64,000 bases of DNA from Thermoanaerobacterium aotearoense (GTDB lineage Bacteria > Bacillota > Thermoanaerobacteria > Thermoanaerobacterales > Thermoanaerobacteraceae): the NCBI RefSeq assembly GCF_009905255.1, contig NZ_CP047602.1:1661501-1725500 (forward strand). Direction: 5' to 3'. Below the pieces are notes generated by a model. That model was given only the letters and a program-made list of their open reading frames with translations, did not search any database and was not told where the DNA came from. Numbering within the stretch: position 1 is the stretch's first letter; the number at the start of each line of letters is the position of its first letter. The position numbers and the translations under genes are program-made. Shown here in pieces: positions 28,052 through 38,945 of the stretch.

Positions 28052-29164
28052 TCAATTATATTTTATCCCCTTATCTAATTTTTCAAAAATTATGCTCATT
28101 TCTTTCTTAAAAAGTTCTTTCCAGTCAAACATTTTAGCAAATTTTCTCCCATTTTGTCCGTATATACTCATTTTATCATAATTTTCTATCAAATCTATAG
28201 TTTTTTCAACAAAATCAGATACATTGTACTTTATAGTTATACCACACTCATTTTCTTTAATCAATTTTCCTAAATCGCCAATGTCTGTTGCTACGACAGG
28301 AAGACCCGACGCCATGTATTCTACAGCTTTAAGTGGAAAAGAATATTTAATAAGCTCTGTTGGAAAAAGCGTACAAAGTCCAAGATCGGCTTTATTAAAG
28401 TACATCGGCAAATCATTATACTTTACTTTCCCCAAAAAATGTACAGCATCACTTACTTTGCAGTCTCTCGATAATTTCCTAAGAACATGTTCATATTTTC
28501 CCTTCCCGAGTATCATCATCGAAACGTCATACTCTCGTCTTAATATAGGAAGGGCTTTTATAGGCATCTCAATACCCGACCAATGTTCTAATGAACCACT
28601 AAATAAAATGACTATTCCTTGATGCTTTTCCCTTTCTCCACTAAATAATTCACAATTGACACCATTTGGTATGTAATATGGTGTAATGCCTGTCATGTTT
28701 TTTCTCAATTCTATCAGATGTTGATTAACAGAAAATGTAACATCGGAATTTTCAATACAATATTTCTCCATGTTTTTCGTTCTCTCGTAAATATCATCAT
28801 ACTCAAAAAACGCAGGAAAATAGTCAATATCCTCATAAGCCAAAAATTTTATTCTACCTGCTTTCAGAAGTTCAACAGCAGTCAAACCTGCCCATGGGCC
28901 TTGTGCAATGCATATATCGTATTTAGAATAATCGAGTTCCATATATTTTTTATATAAAATCATCGGGCTAAAAAGACTTGCAAATTTAACAGGAATCCCT
29001 ATATAATTAATAGTCCCTTCTTGCTTTTTTAATACTCCAAAATCATCGTATCTGCAAAATACTACCGTCAAATCATATTTGTCTTTTAGATAATCTATAA
29101 GATGGTGACTTCTTTGGGGAAGCGAATTTAAAATATCAATAAATGTTATAAATAAAATTTTCAT
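28052..29164 (-). CDS. Glycosyltransferase (GT4-like)
   Basis: 370 residues from ATG 29164 (SD GAGGAGG). Rossmann-like N-terminus MKILFITFIDILNSLPQRSHHL, later FSGSLEHWSGIEMPIKALP and the acceptor/donor region KAVEYMASGLPVVATDIGDL with the GT-B EX7E-like segment. Cytoplasmic; probably makes a surface or spore glycan. It shares the RPQ/PQRSHH-type start with the glycosyltransferase at 33943-34947, so both may serve one polymer. Downstream of a strong hairpin. Confidence 0.83.
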   Translation of the reverse strand: MKILFITFIDILNSLPQRSHHLIDYLKDKYDLTVVFCRYDDFGVLKKQEGTINYIGIPVKFASLFSPMILYKKYMELDYSKYDICIAQGPWAGLTAVELLKAGRIKFLAYEDIDYFPAFFEYDDIYERTKNMEKYCIENSDVTFSVNQHLIELRKNMTGITPYYIPNGVNCELFSGEREKHQGIVILFSGSLEHWSGIEMPIKALPILRREYDVSMMILGKGKYEHVLRKLSRDCKVSDAVHFLGKVKYNDLPMYFNKADLGLCTLFPTELIKYSFPLKAVEYMASGLPVVATDIGDLGKLIKENECGITIKYNVSDFVEKTIDLIENYDKMSIYGQNGRKFAKMFDWKELFKKEMSIIFEKLDKGIKYN

Positions 29165-29183
29165 AGATAACCTCCTCACGCTT

Positions 29184-29217
29184 ACAAGAAAAGCCAGCTT
29201 ATGCTGGCTTTTCTTGT
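29184..29217. terminator. Strong 15-bp hairpin terminator
   Basis: ACAAGAAAAGCCAGC and GCTGGCTTTTCTTGT form a perfect stem with a TTAT loop. On the minus strand TTTTCTT lies inside the 3' arm; on the plus strand TTTT follows. It separates the truncated ORF at 29232 from the glycosyltransferase. Confidence 0.7.
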
Positions 29218-29231
29218 TTTTAATACGACTT

Positions 29232-29343
29232 TTAATACGGTGAATACGGAGCTTTCTGTGGAGGGAATATAGGTGGGAATGGCCTTTGCATGAATTCATC
29301 ACATACATTTGTCGGAAACTCCTCGCACTCAGGCGGTTGCGTA
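29232..29343 (-). pseudogene. 3' fragment of a Pro/Tyr-rich (coat-like) ORF cut by the recombinase gene
   Basis: Just beyond the recombinase stop, a second frame runs without ATG/GTG/TTG and SD into STQPPECEEFPTNVCDEF, then QRPFPPIFPPQKAPYSPY and TAA. Pro, Tyr, Glu and Cys content resembles small spore-coat proteins. Lack of a start, an abrupt beginning at the recombinase end and a good terminator after the stop suggest the tail of a gene interrupted by integration. I could not find its 5' part in the window. Protein family not identified. Confidence 0.45.
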
Positions 29344-30906
29344 CTATGAGATGTAATTTTCAGGATTTGAAAACCTGTAATGAATTTTTATTTTGTGGTC
29401 ATTAAATATCTCAATTTCATCGATGAGACTTTCCACCATTTGTCGTGTCAAATCATTCATCTCGACTATGCATTTTATTTTTTCCACCGCCTGCTGCAAC
29501 AAATGAATTTTCCTGTTTTCAGCATTTATCTCATTTTCAATTTCTTTTAGTTTTTCGCTATAAATACTTGCTTCTTTCTGAAGCCCTTCTGAAAGCATTT
29601 TAAACTGTTCATCTGTCAACAGTCCTTTGATCTTGTCAAAATACATTTGTTTAAAAGTATTCTGCAGATCTGATAATTTGCGTTTATACTCTTCATAAAA
29701 AATTTTTTGCTCTGTATAATTTTCTTCAACTGAATCTTCTGCAAGTTTTAGCAATTGAGTTTTGTCTACGTATTTTCCTGAAATACTTTTTAAATCATTC
29801 AATATCACCTGTTTTAACTTTTCTTCGGATATAGAATGCATTGTACAAGCCTTTGAACCATATTTCCTAAATGCTCCACAGATAAGTTTCCAACACGGCT
29901 CTTTTCTGTCTTTATCGTAAAAATATCCCATGTAGGAACCGCAATCGCCACACCTTGCCTTGCCTGAAAAAAGATGAACAACATGTCCAGGTCTAAATTT
30001 CAACTTAGAACGATTCTTTATTATATCTTGCACATGCCAAAAAACATCTTCACTTATAATTGCTTCATGCATATTAGGTTTTTTTATCCACTCTTCTTCA
30101 GGAACATCTTTCATTTTCTTAACTTTATACGATATTCTTTTCCTTTTGTGCTGAACAATCGTTCCAATATATACTTCGTTTGTCAATATTCTGTGGACAG
30201 CGTTGCTGTTCCACATTTTAATTTTTTGATTACCATTTTTATAATTTTCTTTTGATTCTGCTGGAGTTGGATAACCTTCATCAGTCAATATTTTAGCTAT
30301 CTTTTGCTTGCCAAAACCTTCCATATATAATGAAAAAATTCTTTTGATTGCTTCAGTCGTAATATCGTTGGCAGGTACCAATCTATTCTTATTATTAGGA
30401 TCCTTTTTGTATCCGTATGGAGCGAATGCACCGATGAATAAACCGTCTTTCATTTTGCTTCTAAGATTAAATCTAATTTTTTTTGATATATCTTTTGCAT
30501 ACATGTCGTTTACAACATTTCTAAATGGTATGCTATCATCTTCCCCATTTAATGTATCGATGCCATCATTTAAAGCAATGTATCTAACGCCGTACTCTGG
30601 AAAAATTTTTTCCAAATACTTTCCCATCTCAATGTAATCCCTTCCGAGGCGAGAAAGATCTTTAGTCACGATGCAGTTTACTAATCCTCTTTCCACATCT
30701 TCCATCATTCTTTTAAAATCATTTCTTTCAAACGTAGTACCACTTACACCGTCATCTATGTAAACATCGACAAGGTTCCAATTGTTCTCAAAAACATACC
30801 TTTTAAGCTCGTTTTCCTGCATTTTTATACTTTCACTATAACCTTTGTTAAGATCTTCTTTAGAAAGCCTGCAGTAAATGGCACAATCCCAAATTTTATT
30901 TAACAT
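29344..30906 (-). CDS. Large serine recombinase
   Basis: 520 residues. Resolvase catalytic domain with AIYCRLSKEDLNKGYSES (catalytic Ser in YCRLS), VDVYIDDGVSGTTFERNDF and KDLSRLGRDYIEMG. A Recombinase domain follows (AKILTDEGYPTPAE), then a zinc ribbon (ARCGDCGSYMGYF ... CGAFRKYGSKACTMH) and a coiled-coil tail. It appears intact. Such enzymes integrate and excise elements at att sites without repeats. SD present near AAGGAGGGTG. The gene ends where a truncated ORF begins. Confidence 0.93.
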   Translation of the reverse strand: MLNKIWDCAIYCRLSKEDLNKGYSESIKMQENELKRYVFENNWNLVDVYIDDGVSGTTFERNDFKRMMEDVERGLVNCIVTKDLSRLGRDYIEMGKYLEKIFPEYGVRYIALNDGIDTLNGEDDSIPFRNVVNDMYAKDISKKIRFNLRSKMKDGLFIGAFAPYGYKKDPNNKNRLVPANDITTEAIKRIFSLYMEGFGKQKIAKILTDEGYPTPAESKENYKNGNQKIKMWNSNAVHRILTNEVYIGTIVQHKRKRISYKVKKMKDVPEEEWIKKPNMHEAIISEDVFWHVQDIIKNRSKLKFRPGHVVHLFSGKARCGDCGSYMGYFYDKDRKEPCWKLICGAFRKYGSKACTMHSISEEKLKQVILNDLKSISGKYVDKTQLLKLAEDSVEENYTEQKIFYEEYKRKLSDLQNTFKQMYFDKIKGLLTDEQFKMLSEGLQKEASIYSEKLKEIENEINAENRKIHLLQQAVEKIKCIVEMNDLTRQMVESLIDEIEIFNDHKIKIHYRFSNPENYIS

Positions 30907-30940: not shown

Positions 30941-31075
30941 TTATTTGATGCTTAAAGCTTGTTTAACGATTTGCTTTAATAAATCATCTAAACTTTTCCC
31001 TTTTTCATTAAAGACCCTCTCAACAACAATATTATCATCATCCATTTTATCTGATTTCTTTTTCTTTCTGCCCAA
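30941..31075 (-). CDS. Small recombinase-associated protein
   Basis: 44 residues from TTG 31075 (SD GGGGGG, 8 nt): MGRKKKKSDKMDDD then VERVFNEKGKSLDDLLKQIV. A basic head with a helical tail. I recall small ORFs of this kind in front of serine recombinases in Firmicute elements, possibly accessory or directionality factors, but can name no family. The frame extends to 31168 without an SD. Confidence 0.5.
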   Translation of the reverse strand: MGRKKKKSDKMDDDNIVVERVFNEKGKSLDDLLKQIVKQALSIK

Positions 31076-31175
31076 TTGAACTGCCCCCCCTTTAAAATTC
31101 ATCTTATACAATATATGAATCAATAATTTTTTTAATTTCAGAAAAAGCTTCCGTAATTCTATCCTCATAATAATA

Positions 31176-31204
31176 TTGAAAAAAATCGCTAATCATGCTA
31201 TTAT
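31176..31204 (+). promoter_or_regulatory. Promoter of the DGC-like protein gene
   Basis: TTGAAA (31176-31181), 17-bp spacer, TATTAT (31199-31204). A better TATAAT overlaps at 31202-31207 with a 20-bp gap. SD AGGAGGA at 31250-31256 precedes the GTG start. Confidence 0.6.
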
Positions 31205-31727: not shown

Positions 31728-31821
31728 TTTCAAATTTTAAATACATTGAATGTTACATAGAATTATTTATTTTATTTGTACATATTATTTACTATAAATG
31801 ATAGGCAGGGAGGGATATTTT

Positions 31822-32967
31822 TTGCTATTTAAAGGGTATCATAAAATAGCAATTCCTATTTTGTTGTTAATAGCCACAAGCATCTGGGGAATATTGTTTT
31901 TCAATAAAACATTATCTACTGTAGCAGACAACAAAGAAGAAATAAAGCCTTTTCTGGATGCTTTTTTTGAGTCAAGAGGAAGTGTACTTTTAAGCGGAAA
32001 TATTAAAGACATAGAAAAATATTACGATGTTGCTAACACAAACGGCAAATGGGCATTAGAGCATGAAAAAAGGAGAATCGACTATGTAAAAGGATGGTCT
32101 GAAAAAAGAAATCTTAAATTCGTAGAAGCACAATCAATTTACAGAATCAAAAGTCTAAAAGTTGGTGAACAGTCTATATGGCTCTATTTGGTAGAGACGA
32201 TGAAGATGGGCTACGAGTACAATGTAAAGCCTAATTTGATAAACTACATGGGGCTTGGGATTCGCCATTCCATTCAATTGGTTAAAATCAATGGCAATTG
32301 GGTGATACGCCGTGATTGGTATTACGATCCATTAGATGAAGATTCGGCATTTATAGATATTAGCCCTGCTGACGGGATAGCCACAGAAATATCGCCAACC
32401 AATACCACTCCTGCAGGAGACACCCAAAATCAAAAAAAAGGAAATTATGACAGAGAAGGTGCTGTCAGGTATGCTGATACATACGCCGGTGCTGCATGGG
32501 GCAGCGGAAATAACTATGAATACAACAAAAAATACAGAGATTACAATGGCATTGGTGGCGACTGCACAAATTTTGCTTCACAAGTCTTACACGAAGGGGG
32601 CGGACTAAAAATGGACTACATATGGAACTTTAACGGTCGTGACTCCAGTACGGCATGGGCACAAGCTCCTGCACTGTTTAACTACCTTATATACAATGGA
32701 AAAGGAAGGCTTATCGCACAAGGTACATACACAGACATGGTAAAACCATCGGATTCACACCCTGCAGGGGCGATACGGGAACTAAAAAAAGGCGATCTTA
32801 TTTGCTATGAAGAAAAGGGTGAAATTGTTCACTTCGGCGTTGTAACTGGTTTTGATTCTTACGGAATTCCTGTCGTAAACACGCATACATCTGATAGATA
32901 CCACGTTCCATTTGACTTAGGATGGGATAAGAAAGTCATCTATAGGTTTATCCACATAAATGATTAA
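31822..32967 (+). CDS. Membrane-anchored Amidase_6 domain protein
   Basis: 381 residues from TTG 31822 (SD GGGAGGG); the frame opens at 31798. Signal anchor IAIPILLLIATSIWGILFF, an NTF2-like middle region, then Amidase_6 (about residues 225-380): NYDREGAVRYADTYAGAAWG, GGDCTNFASQVL with the catalytic Cys, and HFGVVTGFDSYGIPVVNTHT with the His. Putative extracytoplasmic cysteine hydrolase, perhaps acting on peptidoglycan; Firmicute homologues are often in sporulating species. Substrate not known. Confidence 0.82.
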   Translation: MLFKGYHKIAIPILLLIATSIWGILFFNKTLSTVADNKEEIKPFLDAFFESRGSVLLSGNIKDIEKYYDVANTNGKWALEHEKRRIDYVKGWSEKRNLKFVEAQSIYRIKSLKVGEQSIWLYLVETMKMGYEYNVKPNLINYMGLGIRHSIQLVKINGNWVIRRDWYYDPLDEDSAFIDISPADGIATEISPTNTTPAGDTQNQKKGNYDREGAVRYADTYAGAAWGSGNNYEYNKKYRDYNGIGGDCTNFASQVLHEGGGLKMDYIWNFNGRDSSTAWAQAPALFNYLIYNGKGRLIAQGTYTDMVKPSDSHPAGAIRELKKGDLICYEEKGEIVHFGVVTGFDSYGIPVVNTHTSDRYHVPFDLGWDKKVIYRFIHIND

Positions 32968-33001
32968 AGAGAGGCAAGATCCTCTCTTTAATCATTTATG
33001 T
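32954..33001. terminator. 21-bp perfect hairpin shared by two convergent genes
   Basis: Arms at 32954-32974 and 32981-33001 pair perfectly around CAAGAT. The stop codons of both convergent genes (TAA at 32965-32967 plus strand; TAA at 32998-32996 minus strand) lie inside the arms. There is no separate T-run, so it may rather protect 3' ends or pause polymerase. Confidence 0.7.
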
Positions 33002-33199
33002 CTGATCAAGACTTGTAAGAACATCATCAAAGACATCTATCCTGCATTTCTGATTTTTTACATCCCAATGAGTACATATTTCACAGCTTCTTGATGATAA
33101 GTTTGCCATAGACATCACTGAAGCCTTCCCTAAAGAACCATCATAGCTAAAATCAGGACACATTTCACCCACTGCTTTTAGCTGATCTCTATTAGCCAT
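32996..33199 (-). CDS. Small Cys-containing conserved hypothetical protein
   Basis: 67 residues. Four Cys (positions 14, 39, 42, 52) in GEMCPDFSYDG and CEICTHWDVKNQKC could bind a metal ion. No family recognised. Overlaps the YkuS-like gene by 8 bp, so the two are co-expressed. Confidence 0.7.
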   Translation of the reverse strand: MANRDQLKAVGEMCPDFSYDGSLGKASVMSMANLSSRSCEICTHWDVKNQKCRIDVFDDVLTSLDQT

Positions 33200-33467
33200 T
33201 TATATCACCGCCTGTACTTCTTTTTATCGCGTTTTCTATGTCTTCTGGCGTCATTCCAGTTGCATCAATTATTGGCGATCTTGTATACGTATTTTCAAAG
33301 CCAAGCATGTCTTTGTGTTGTCCTGTTATTACAATTGCATCATAATCATTTACGTTAATACCGCTTAAATTGCTATCTTGCTCAAGATTTACCACATCAT
33401 ATCCTTTACCAGTAAGGTATCTTTTTACATTTGAAAGCTCTCTTTCAACGGCTATCTTTTTCCCCAT
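33192..33467 (-). CDS. YkuS/UPF0180 family protein
   Basis: 91 residues from ATG 33467 with SD GGAGGTG. The start MGKKIAVERELSNVKRYL, the segment GYDVVNLEQ and YDAIVITGQHKDMLG match the UPF0180 (YkuS) family, small cytoplasmic proteins of unknown function. The longer frame to 33596 has no SD. Confidence 0.82.
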   Translation of the reverse strand: MGKKIAVERELSNVKRYLTGKGYDVVNLEQDSNLSGINVNDYDAIVITGQHKDMLGFENTYTRSPIIDATGMTPEDIENAIKRSTGGDING

Positions 33468-33520
33468 CAAAAACACCTCCAATAGCGAATACATAATTAT
33501 TATTAGTTTAATGTGTCTTT

Positions 33521-33841
33521 TTATTCGCATAGGAGGACTATTAAAAGCGATAAAAACATTAAAAGCGCGGCCGCCGTCAATAACACTTTTCCCCATTGTG
33601 TCATATAAATAAAATCATATCTCCTCTCAGGAAGTTCAAGATTTCTAAATATTCTGCTGATAGTCCTCATATCATTAAACCAATATGATACATACAAAAA
33701 ACCTCCAATAAGCCCTACAATACACCCGACAATAAAAAAATAGTTGCTGTAACTTACGTACGTAGAATGTATTCCATTTAAAGCAATATTAGCAATAACT
33801 GCAATAAGAGATAAAATTATACCCAGCAAAATACCTTTCAA
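33521..33841 (-). CDS. Hypothetical membrane protein with three transmembrane helices
   Basis: 106 residues from TTG 33841 (SD AGGAG), or 113 from ATG 33862. Hydrophobic segments at the N-terminus (GILLGIILSLIAVIANIAL), middle (FFIVGCIVGLIGGFLYVSYW) and C-terminus. The loop RIFRNLELPERRYDFIYMTQ is hydrophilic. No family recognised. Confidence 0.7.
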   Translation of the reverse strand: MKGILLGIILSLIAVIANIALNGIHSTYVSYSNYFFIVGCIVGLIGGFLYVSYWFNDMRTISRIFRNLELPERRYDFIYMTQWGKVLLTAAALLMFLSLLIVLLCE

Positions 33842-33942
33842 GCTAACAACTCCTAAATACATTAATATCTACCTTTTTCTTCTCGAATAATTATATCATA
33901 TTTTGATTATTGCTACATTTAATCTTAAGCAAATATAATATA

Positions 33943-34947
33943 TCATATCAAATAATATCTTATAATTCTGTCGGCATACTCTGCTCTTTTATCCCATGAA
34001 TTTTCTCGCGCCACTTCCATAAGCCTTTCCTTTTTCACGACGTCAATATTTTCAATGGCTTTTTTTATTAAATGCACAAATTCTTCCTTGCCATCGGCAG
34101 TGTAAATTCCATCGCATCTTATGATAGAAGGCAATTTGGAAGAAACAATTTGTTTTCCAGCGCTTAAGTATTCATACATTTTTATTGGATCGGCTCCTTC
34201 CGTCATAGAAGTTATTTTAAAAGGAATTATAGCAACATCAAAATACTGTAAATATTCTGGAAGAATATCATATTTTTTCTCTCCCAAATAAAAAATATTG
34301 TCTCTAACCGGCACTTTGCTTGTATTCAGATTAGGACCAATGTACACAAACTTGTACTCAGGACATTTTAAAGCAATATAATCCACTAAATCCCAATCTA
34401 TCCATGTTGCTAATGCTCCTATATATCCAACTATAGGTTTACCTTCAGGCAAATCAAAAGGTCTTTCTGAAAAAATTTTGCTTGCTTTTTTAAAATGATC
34501 AAAATCCGCACCATTTGGCAACAAAAAAGTTCTTTTATTGGCTTTAATATTTATATTAAATAGTTTTTCAGATGAAGCAAATACTATATTGGCAGCTTTT
34601 TGCATTTCTTCAAAATTAAGCTTCCATTCTGTAAATTCTTCTGATGGATAATCTATAGAGTCAAATATCAAATATTTTTTCTTAAACATTTTTAAAAAAC
34701 TGTAATTGGGAGGATATGATATCCATACTATTGGAATCTCTTTAAACTTTACACTGCCAATGTCTACACCATTTACAATGTATAAATTTTTCTTCACCTC
34801 TATTATTCCTCTATTATAACTATCATCAAAAGATTTATTAACATAGTAAACCGTATAATTTCTTTCAGACATACGGCTTAATATCTGCTGGGGTCTCTGA
34901 TAAAGCCAATTAAAATTAATAGTAGGTGGATATATAATCGTCGCCAT
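33943..34947 (-). CDS. Glycosyltransferase (teichuronic-acid/TuaH-like)
   Basis: 334 residues from ATG 34947 (SD AGGAGGT). Begins MATIIYPPTINFNWLYQRPQ, with IVWISYPPNY, LLPNGADFDHF, VGYIGALATWIDWDLV and KMYEYLSAGKQIVSSKLP, the C-terminal GT-B donor site. The YQRPQQI opening is typical of the family containing TuaH. Probably adds a sugar to a wall or capsule polymer. Divergent from the M23 peptidase gene. Confidence 0.8.
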   Translation of the reverse strand: MATIIYPPTINFNWLYQRPQQILSRMSERNYTVYYVNKSFDDSYNRGIIEVKKNLYIVNGVDIGSVKFKEIPIVWISYPPNYSFLKMFKKKYLIFDSIDYPSEEFTEWKLNFEEMQKAANIVFASSEKLFNINIKANKRTFLLPNGADFDHFKKASKIFSERPFDLPEGKPIVGYIGALATWIDWDLVDYIALKCPEYKFVYIGPNLNTSKVPVRDNIFYLGEKKYDILPEYLQYFDVAIIPFKITSMTEGADPIKMYEYLSAGKQIVSSKLPSIIRCDGIYTADGKEEFVHLIKKAIENIDVVKKERLMEVARENSWDKRAEYADRIIRYYLI

Positions 34948-35121
34948 ACAAATACCTCCTGCTAAATTTTCTAACTTTGTACCCATAATATTCAGAAAAT
35001 CTCAATTTCGCTAATTCTAAAATCCACAAATATTGTTAATTTATTATCAAAGCAGGAATTTTAAACTTAATGTAGAATATAATTAATTGGCTATTTTATG
35101 AAGGAGGTGTTACTGGATTAA

Positions 35122-36036
35122 ATGCACATAAAAAAGAAAGATGAGTACATAAACATAATGGTTGTGCCAAGCTCTAAAAAGGACATAAAAAGCTTTAAAA
35201 TAAAGAGATCTGCTTTAAAAGCTTATATATTTGCAGCAACAGTACTTTTGATAGGCTTGTTTTCAACCTTTTTTTATTTTGCAGGAAAATACACATATCT
35301 TTCCGCTGCAGTTTATGAAAAAGACAAGATAATTGCAGAAAAAAATCAAAAAATAGCAGAAATGCAAGACATAAATCAATCTCAAGACAAAAAAATCGCC
35401 ATGCTTAATGATAATGCCAAGAAAATAAGTGACAAAATGAAAAGCCTTGACGAGTTAGAGCAAAAAGTCAGGCGAATGGTAGGGTTAAGCTCACCAGAAA
35501 CAAGTCGTGGCGGCATAACACGTGATTCAAGGAATCTAACTCTGGATGAAAAAACTACAAATGAACTTTCAAGCGAAATAGATAATAAAACGTACGAATA
35601 CAAAGCACTGATAGATGACATAAGTAAAAGATTGGATTATCTTGCATCGCTGCCATCATCCTATCCCGTCGTAGGACCTATAACATCACCATTTGGAAGT
35701 CGCACATCCCCTTATGGCGAAAGCTCAGAATTTCACCCTGGAATAGACATTGCCGTTGGATATGGCACACCTGTTAAAGCAGCAGGCAAAGGCATTGTAA
35801 CCTATGCAGGATGGCTTTCCGGATATGGAAATGTGGTCATGATAAATCATGGTTATGGAATCACTTCTGTTTATGGCCATAATTCTCAACTGTTAGTAAA
35901 AGTAGGACAAACTGTAAATAGGGGTGATGTCATAGCAAAATCTGGCAGCACAGGTCGCAGTACAGGGCCACACGTGCATTTTGAAATAAGGTTAAATGGC
36001 AATCCAGTTGATCCTATGAAGTATCTTAGCAAATGA
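35122..36036 (+). CDS. M23 family peptidase (LytM domain), membrane-anchored
   Basis: 304 residues. Transmembrane anchor (34-55), coiled coil (65-115), then the LytM domain: H205-PGID-D209 and H284-V-H286 zinc and active-site residues with GH253. These make it potentially active on peptide cross-bridges. SD AGGAGGTG is 12 nt before the ATG, longer than usual; a stop immediately precedes it in frame. Together with the bactofilin gene 36 bp on, this resembles the bactofilin-M23 pairs that shape cell walls in other bacteria. Confidence 0.9.
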   Translation: MHIKKKDEYINIMVVPSSKKDIKSFKIKRSALKAYIFAATVLLIGLFSTFFYFAGKYTYLSAAVYEKDKIIAEKNQKIAEMQDINQSQDKKIAMLNDNAKKISDKMKSLDELEQKVRRMVGLSSPETSRGGITRDSRNLTLDEKTTNELSSEIDNKTYEYKALIDDISKRLDYLASLPSSYPVVGPITSPFGSRTSPYGESSEFHPGIDIAVGYGTPVKAAGKGIVTYAGWLSGYGNVVMINHGYGITSVYGHNSQLLVKVGQTVNRGDVIAKSGSTGRSTGPHVHFEIRLNGNPVDPMKYLSK

Positions 36037-36072
36037 CGTATGATAGTTGCCAAACCCAAAAGGAGGTGTACT

Positions 36073-36480
36073 ATGTTTCAAAGAAAAGATGCTAATACAT
36101 TTGATGCAAATACTGATAAAATCGATACAATAATTGGCAAGAACACGAAGATAGAAGGAAACATCGTTTCTCAGGGCACTATGAGAATTGATGGAATCGT
36201 TACTGGAAAAGTCGAAGTAGAAGGTAATTTGATAGTCGGAGAAAATTCAAAAATAGAAGCTGATGTAAAAGCTGATAATATTTCAGTTTCTGGAGAGATA
36301 GTCGGAAATCTTACAATAAAAAATCAGGTTCAGATAACATCCACAGGAAAAGTGTATGGTGACATAGAAGTACAAAATCTCATCATTGACGAAGGTGCAA
36401 TCTTTGATGGAAAATGTAAAATGAACAAAAAATCAGAAAAGAATGTGGATACTCAACAAAAGAAAAAAGATGTAAAATAA
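36073..36480 (+). CDS. Bactofilin (polymer-forming cytoskeletal protein)
   Basis: 135 residues from ATG 36073 (SD AGGAGGTG). Right-handed beta-helix core with regular repeats: IDTIIGKNTKIEGNIVSQG, MRIDGIVTGKVEVEGNLIVG, then a lysine-rich tail. Bactofilins self-assemble without nucleotide. The M23 gene directly upstream suggests control of wall hydrolysis. Confidence 0.9.
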   Translation: MFQRKDANTFDANTDKIDTIIGKNTKIEGNIVSQGTMRIDGIVTGKVEVEGNLIVGENSKIEADVKADNISVSGEIVGNLTIKNQVQITSTGKVYGDIEVQNLIIDEGAIFDGKCKMNKKSEKNVDTQQKKKDVK

Positions 36481-38148: not shown

Positions 38149-38688
38149 CTATCCTTGAAACATATTTCTAGTATTATCGATATCCTGCTGGTTTGCATTG
38201 CTTACAGGATACCATCCTTTCTGTTTCATCAAATTGAATATCTCATAGTGGACATCGTGTTCTTCATTTAGTATATTCTTAATGTTGGAATATACATTTT
38301 GATTTGCGCTTTCTATACAAGCACTGTTATAAGATTGTAGTAAAAGTATTTCTGATTTTAAACAATCTGCAGTTATATCTTTATCAGTAAGAGTTGATGT
38401 TTGAGATGCACCCGCTGTATAAGTTTGATTCTTACTGCTTGCACTATTTAGATTCTGCATCGTAGTATTGTCAATCGCCTTGCTTATGCTACCTGCCGGC
38501 GAATAGTCATTAGGCATACCTGTAGCATTTATACTGCCAGTTGCAGTAGCAGTAGCGTTTGCTGATACATTTTTTAAATTGGAATTTGTATATGAATCTA
38601 TTTGTTTGCTAATACTGCCACCCGACATATCCGGCATAGCTGCCGAATTCATGGCAGTAGTATTTACTTTTGCACTTTTTCTACCCAT
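38149..38688 (-). CDS. CotF-like spore coat protein with Ala/Ser/Thr/Asn-rich repeats
   Basis: 179 residues. The N-terminal half has two repeats of GSISKxIDxxTxxNL (GGSISKQIDSYTNSNLKN; AGSISKAIDNTTMQNLNS) in a low-complexity Ala/Thr background. The C-terminal half is the CotF-type helical domain (LKSEILLLQSYNSACIESAN ... HYEIFNLMKQKGWYPV). Forms part of the spore coat. Eleven bp after a second coat gene; SD GGAGTGA. Confidence 0.82.
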   Translation of the reverse strand: MGRKSAKVNTTAMNSAAMPDMSGGSISKQIDSYTNSNLKNVSANATATATGSINATGMPNDYSPAGSISKAIDNTTMQNLNSASSKNQTYTAGASQTSTLTDKDITADCLKSEILLLQSYNSACIESANQNVYSNIKNILNEEHDVHYEIFNLMKQKGWYPVSNANQQDIDNTRNMFQG

Positions 38689-38699
38689 TTATATCACTC

Positions 38700-38882
38700 C
38701 TATTTCAATAAATTTAATAAAGAGTTGTAATGATTTTGATGCACGTTTATATTTTTCTGAAATAGATTTTTAAGCTGTGGATCTGTCACTTGATTCACAG
38801 CCGTCTGATACTTCTTTATTATCAATTGCTCTGATGCAAGTTCATCCGAAATATATCCAAGTTCTTTTTGAGTTAATGTCAT
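38700..38882 (-). CDS. Small spore coat protein (CotF-like helical)
   Basis: 60 residues: MTLTQKELGYISDELASEQL, then KKYQTAVNQVTDPQLKNLF and NINVHQNHYNSLL. Matches the ferritin-like small coat proteins encoded in pairs with longer CotF-type proteins in clostridia. SD GGAGGAGGT. First gene of the pair; probably transcribed by a late mother-cell sigma factor, though I could not assign its promoter. Confidence 0.82.
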   Translation of the reverse strand: MTLTQKELGYISDELASEQLIIKKYQTAVNQVTDPQLKNLFQKNINVHQNHYNSLLNLLK

Positions 38883-38945
38883 ATTTTTACCTCCTCCACA
38901 ATTGTTTTTGCATATTTATTATTTGTAGTTGATTCTTTTTAATTC

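Follow-up and report, generated by a model that had tools for sequence, protein, structure and literature searches.

A split coat-like gene and a large serine recombinase in Thermoanaerobacterium aotearoense: probable rejoining by chromosomal inversion

The window (the 64,000-nucleotide stretch of DNA analysed here) belongs to the chromosome of Thermoanaerobacterium aotearoense and carries a large serine recombinase gene that ends at the 3' fragment of a coat-like gene, the 5' fragment of which lies on the opposite strand, 601 kb away. Very probably, recombinase-mediated inversion rejoins these two fragments into a gene that is still under selection. The whole explanation, a domesticated inversion system that rejoins a split coat gene with mother-cell timing included, is likely; mother-cell timing of the rejoining, during sporulation, is, taken by itself, rather likely. 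We lean, if slightly, towards the most specific form of the proposal, in which each sporulating mother cell would rebuild a spore-coat gene by a programmed 601-kb (22.5%) inversion across the terminus, using a domesticated transposon-type recombinase whose element is otherwise reduced to one small ORF and two sites.

The comparison set consisted of ten genomes, one per species, numbered G000 to G009; G000 is the genome of the window (its chromosome coordinates are marked C1), the assembly of G008 is incomplete, and G009 represents a sister genus. Sites attL, attR, attB and attP were aligned across all ten. Block X is the neighbourhood of the recombinase cassette in the window, P is a butyrate/branched-chain operon, and Z is a further block. 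The features of the window are collected in Table 1.

Table 1. Features at and around the split coat-like gene, in window coordinates.
Feature	Position	Strand	Basis or remark
Glycosyltransferase gene, original downstream neighbour	28052-29161	-	Pfam Glycos_transf_1; follows the whole gene in G002, G004 and G005
Terminator hairpin, stem GAAAAGCCAGC/GCTGGCTTTTC	29188-29213	-	After the tail stop; same hairpin behind the whole gene in relatives
3' fragment of split coat-like gene, core to stop, without start codon	29232-29336	-	Homologous to the ends of whole genes
attR	29312-29351 (outer limits approximate)	-	attP-type left arm joined at the core to attB-type right half
13-bp core CCGCCTGAGTGCG of attR	29324-29336	-	Only other exact genome copy at C1:1089852-1089864 (+)
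Large serine recombinase, 520 aa	29344-30906	-	ORF; Pfam domains; TnpX-like; omega
Small ORF, 44 aa, TTG start, candidate directionality factor	30941-31075	-	Directly upstream of the recombinase in 7/7 carriers
CATATATT box, possible sigma-E-type -10 of recombinase operon	31110-31117	-	Kept in 7/7 genomes
Block X, chromosomal neighbourhood of the cassette	31798-36480	.	Adjoins butyrate operon P in un-inverted relatives

The initial annotation described the recombinase as ending at a startless coat-like 3' fragment with its own stop and terminator, and the ORF, the frame and the hairpin were all confirmed. Read on the - strand, the tail crosses the recombinase stop (TAG at 29344-29346, inside attR) in the +1 frame, has the sequence ...SHSTQPPECEEFPTNVCDEFMQRPFPPIFPPQKAPYSPY* with the stop ending at 29232, and is preceded by neither a start codon nor a Shine-Dalgarno sequence. 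A mechanically listed ORF at 28052-29308 is the glycosyltransferase gene, which probably starts at the ATG at 29161, after AGGAGG. In G002, G004 and G005, a whole 222-aa gene (MAFAKKLIGEQEVGPGP...PYSPY) with the same end residues stands beside the same glycosyltransferase gene, which argues that the tail is not a chance reading frame. The 222-aa gene is also whole in G006, where a group II intron separates it from the glycosyltransferase gene; this intron (L087 5700-7900), which lies just behind the coat-like gene, contains a 481-aa reverse transcriptase frame. For the last 32 residues, a recognisable counterpart was present in each of the ten genomes, seven of which agreed at every residue. 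The tail thus has homologues, and relatives without a live recombinase carry the longer, uninterrupted gene, so the interruption that the annotation had proposed is real.

The coat-like family is present in 69 of 249 sampled genomes of the phylum. Pfam holds no model for the protein, and three of eight homologues matched NCBIfam NF052457 (the BMQ_0737 spore coat family) weakly, with a best E of 6.6e-4 that is below the cut-off; the first member scored 11.2 bits, short of the cut-off of 71 bits. From the weak family match and the genomic context, "coat" is a likely label for the protein. AlphaFold predicted a beta-rich core at residues 29-181 and a low-confidence, disordered tail from residue 179 on, and a fold search with the protein gave no match at E <= 0.001. 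Since the split falls just past the folded core, it removes only the Cys/Pro/Tyr tail. The relatives have a promoter-like pair in which TGTAACA is followed after ~15-16 bases by CGTATATT or a close variant, and the strict form of this promoter was found once in the 289 kb of own sequence sampled, at the coat-like gene. The sigma-K promoter form is mACm-N16-CATA. The pair appears to resemble such a promoter, and the TGTAACA box appears similar to a SpoIIID site, for which TGTAACAAT was reported before CD1234 of C. difficile (PMC5025042). Both sigK and spoIVA are whole in the host, and the sigma-K gene lies uninterrupted at C1:1306238-1306912, within the 601-kb invertible segment.

The 5' fragment and attL occupy C1:1089288-1089872 (+), where codons 1-193 are followed by a foreign end and a stop (194 aa in all), and the 3' fragment and attR lie at about C1:1690732-1690836 (-). 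The core, CCNCCTGAGTGCG, occurs exactly twice in G000, G001, G003, G005 and G007 and once in G002, G006 and the incomplete G008; it is absent from G004 and G009, which differ from it by single bases or more, and a reversed control pattern had no match. The two copies are inverted in G000 and G005. Around the core, attL reads CCCAGTACCGCCTGAGTGCGTACCATGAGA and attR reads CTCATAGTACGCAACCGCCTGAGTGCGAGGAG, the latter with an attP-type left arm, CTCATAGTAC, at 29341-29350; attB is CCCAGTACCACCTGAGTGCGAGGAG, and the intact attP of G005, CTCATAGTACATCACCACCTGAGTGCGTACCATTAGA, has nearly palindromic outer arms. When the two G000 fragments were joined at the core, the product was in frame, 222 aa long and identical to the whole G002 protein at 219 of 222 positions. 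The comparison with relatives that had been suggested at the outset therefore yielded both the uninterrupted gene and the att sites, and the join restores the frame. Because attL and attR are inverted, recombination between them must flip ~601 kb, that is, 22.5% of the 2,668,690-base chromosome. The GC skew changes sign at ~1,389 kb, so that the invertible segment straddles the replication terminus, and the midpoint of the two sites (1,390,344) falls within ~2.5 kb of the skew switch. The sites are not always so evenly placed around the terminus: in G005 and G006 the midpoint is at least 39 kb off, and exact symmetry was discarded as a rule.

The domain composition of the 520-aa recombinase (Pfam Resolvase, Recombinase and Zn_ribbon_recom) and its sequence, 34% identical to that of TndX from end to end, place it in the TnpX/TndX branch of large serine recombinases; TnpX is the nearest solved relative, with the match in the N-terminal domain. 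Its omega values among G000, G003 and G008 are 0.056-0.063, a sign of purifying selection although the other genes of the element are all gone. The TTG start of the 44-aa ORF upstream is also found in G008 and G005, and the ORF may encode a directionality factor. Its dN/dS values were set aside as unreliable, some of the sequences having come from behind a stop codon. The CATATATT box, which was compared with CATATATA of the G000 spoIVA gene, is possibly the sigma-E-type -10 element of the recombinase operon. Viral contigs contained no relatives of the recombinase and no attP, and plasmids contained no copy of the small ORF. A frame beginning MISDFFQYYYEDRITEAF... near 31200 was considered as a 5' gene half close upstream of the recombinase and was dropped, the true 5' fragment being 601 kb off. 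At 38149-38900 (-) of the window, less than 10 kb from the recombinase, there are two small ORFs that look coat-F-type-like by eye.

The relatives show what the two states of the locus look like. G000 and G003 have the arrangements coat5'-P and tail-recombinase-X, and G008 has tail-recombinase-X; un-flipping G000 would yield a whole coat gene and P-attP-recombinase-X. In G002 and G006 the gene is whole and P is beside X, and between them lie an attP arm and a recombinase remnant of ~131 bp, a scar located exactly where an un-flipped G000 would put the cassette. In G005 the gene is whole as well, and X...recombinase-attP-Z is found ~670 kb away, inverted and with an intact attP. Both orientations thus exist in nature, between species, with G000, G003 and G008 on one side and G005 on the other. 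A decayed attP beside X in G001, and the same scar in G005 besides its live cassette, indicate that the cassette is old at the X locus. The decayed attP, with the last bases of the recombinase gene, is at L077 position 4519 in G005 and at L093 position 6277 in G001, and the region next to X in G005 seems partly duplicated, one copy having the live cassette. In a tree of the X block, G008 (split) was placed outside both G000/G003 (split) and G002/G006 (whole), from which we deduce at least two flips; the glycosyltransferase tree is weakly supported here. As judged from these genomes, precise recombination at the sites made the gene whole in some lineages and split it in others, with the fragments selected as one protein, and the attL x attR reaction presumably runs in living cells today.

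The likely history and mechanism are as follows. A rearrangement with one end at the gap between X and Z would have divided an ancestral element inside the coat gene, after which the reaction of the recombinase would have become an inversion; the recombinase and the small ORF, possibly a directionality factor, would be what remains of the element. Recombination of attL with attR would invert the segment, rejoin the 222-aa gene in frame and leave an intact attP beside the recombinase, and attP x attB would split the gene anew, with the small ORF setting the direction of the reaction. Integration destroys attP; the likeliest source of a full attP in a chromosome is therefore a reaction of attL with attR that took place once an inversion had divided the integrated element. 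In the mother cell, the recombinase and a partner, perhaps the 44-aa ORF product, would recombine attL with attR, the germ line would stay split, and the flipped chromosome of the mother cell would then be discarded, as with skin.

The main rival is phase variation, in which stochastic flips in vegetative cells would produce lineages with either the full-length or a tailless coat protein; we hold it to be unlikely. Close relatives are fixed in different states, as phase variation would have it, and since the split lies just past residues 29-181, which form the folded core, the 194-aa product might function without its tail. The G000 inversion is nearly symmetrical about the terminus, hence cheap for dividing cells. 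The genome with a live recombinase and a whole gene, G005, also speaks for this rival, and for that genome flipping in the germ line fits at least as well as restriction to the mother cell. However, the coat-like family and the conserved late-sporulation-like promoter make the gene look mother-cell specific, the precedents for this enzyme class in spore genes are all developmental (PMC5595907, PMC5025042), and six of the seven genomes whose recombinase is live have the gene split.

A second possibility is that the locus is a broken relic, left by a few accidental inversions during evolution, with a dispensable coat gene and no present rejoining in G000. The relatives have lost the recombinase several times, but the substitutions in the separated pieces argue otherwise. 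In the last 32 codons, the synonymous changes between split genomes numbered 3 for G000-G003, 10 for G000-G008 and 11 for G001-G007, and the same pairs had no nonsynonymous change. After allowing for shared branches, there were ~22 independent changes in the tail, all of them synonymous, for which the neutral probability is ~1e-13 or less. The many synonymous changes, in a tail that is untranslatable where it is located, disfavour constraint on the DNA site alone. The omega of the 5' fragment is mostly 0.02-0.07 among members of the genus (the closely related G000 and G003 differ too little for a verdict), and that of the recombinase is similarly low. The core copies agree within a genome though genomes differ (CCG twice in G000, CCA twice in G003, CACCTGCATG twice in G009), which suggests, over few bases, that identity of the core within a genome is required or maintained. 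Moreover, no split coat gene without a live recombinase was found among the genomes examined. By these measures the separated fragments are under strong purifying selection, in which selection before and after the last split is not fully separable; since both are so constrained while apart, the fragments evidently get rejoined and expressed. We therefore regard the relic as improbable, and clearly more so than phase variation.

The initial annotation had supposed that a serine-recombinase element sits in a sporulation gene and that its excision restores the gene. The split of a coat-like gene stood; excision did not hold for G000, where attL (+) and attR (-) are so placed that recombination would give an inversion and no circle. 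The geometry for an element that leaves as a circle is present in G009 and G001, where the coat-like gene is interrupted at the identical position (in G001 at the same core) and the fragments lie on one strand, 6.4 kb apart in G009 and 49.5 kb apart in G001. For G000 we give this explanation hardly any credence: the fragments are on opposite strands with no 5' half near the recombinase, and the junctions of the 5' fragment with the butyrate operon and of the tail with the recombinase and X recur in the separate assembly G003, the latter junction in G008 also. Excision could hold for G000 only if the closed assembly were wrongly oriented at both junctions. An assembly artefact in which both G000 junctions are chimaeric, for which the use of one genome per species leaves some room, is just as remote, because the shared core is just 13 bp, the same junctions are present in G003 and in part in G008, and either the reciprocal arrangement or scars of it can be seen in G005, G002 and G006.

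The proposed rejoining by inversion resembles several known systems in part. As in skin/sigK, SP-beta/spsM, gin/gerE and yin/yabG, a large serine recombinase and att sites split a putative spore-formation gene (PMC5025042, PMC4191935, PMC5595907, PMC10747680), and, as in skin-type elements, the recombinase adjoins one att site (attR) and exact joining within a short core puts the gene back in frame. Skin-type elements typically encode a small directionality factor, for which the conserved 44-aa ORF before the recombinase is a candidate in G000. Those four systems all work by excision (PMC5595907, PMC4191935, PMC6957869, PMC10747680). Skin-type elements are flanked by direct repeats and excised as a circle, whereas the two G000 sites, in inverted orientation, have the terminus and 601 kb between them, and the G000 reaction would lose nothing, the rest of the element being already gone. 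Direct orientation of attL and attR is found in G009 and G001 but not in G000, and we therefore do not class the G000 system as a member of the intervening-element family; it would work alike, with inversion replacing excision. TnpX and TndX move a transposon (Tn4451 and Tn5397), whereas the G000 copy stands alone between chromosomal genes and has conserved att sites in a host gene. Switches of the Hin and fimS type likewise have inverted sites and two chromosomal orientations that alter a gene product; however, they involve short segments and small invertases or tyrosine recombinases, unlike the large serine recombinase, the unlike sites (attB/attP, attL/attR), the 601-kb segment and the joining or splitting of a coding sequence in G000. 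The skin recombinase of C. difficile inverts plasmid DNA between attB and a turned attP, so the chemistry of inversion has a precedent, and it needs CD1234 for attL x attR (PMC5025042).

In the literature searched, which took in few subscription papers, there was no report of spore-gene rejoining by inversion or of this locus, and all developmental rejoinings of spore genes found were excisions in which the element is lost from a terminal cell. The system thereby opens to study a rejoining in which the recombinase is always retained, and it lends itself to asking if sporulating mother cells are able to invert over one-fifth of their chromosome. It also offers a recombinase from a thermophile with attB, attP, attL and attR sites identified by genome comparison. 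One gene and one core occur in three arrangements among the relatives: interrupted by an excisable element, split by inversion across the chromosome, and fixed whole next to a dead recombinase. These make it possible to trace how an excisable element becomes invertible.

The elements of G009 and G001 are like classical intervening elements in being excisable. That of G001 is of the conjugative type and is also present in G007; in both genomes (L080-L082 and L085-L086, respectively) it includes pilus/secretion-like genes and its own related recombinase. The stretch in G009 (L079 6146-12550) encodes two GGDEF-type proteins, a truncated radical-SAM-like ORF, an iron-sulphur-like ORF and the recombinase. 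In G004, a second copy of the amidase-like gene of block X, with 82% identity, is located at C1:180503-181586.
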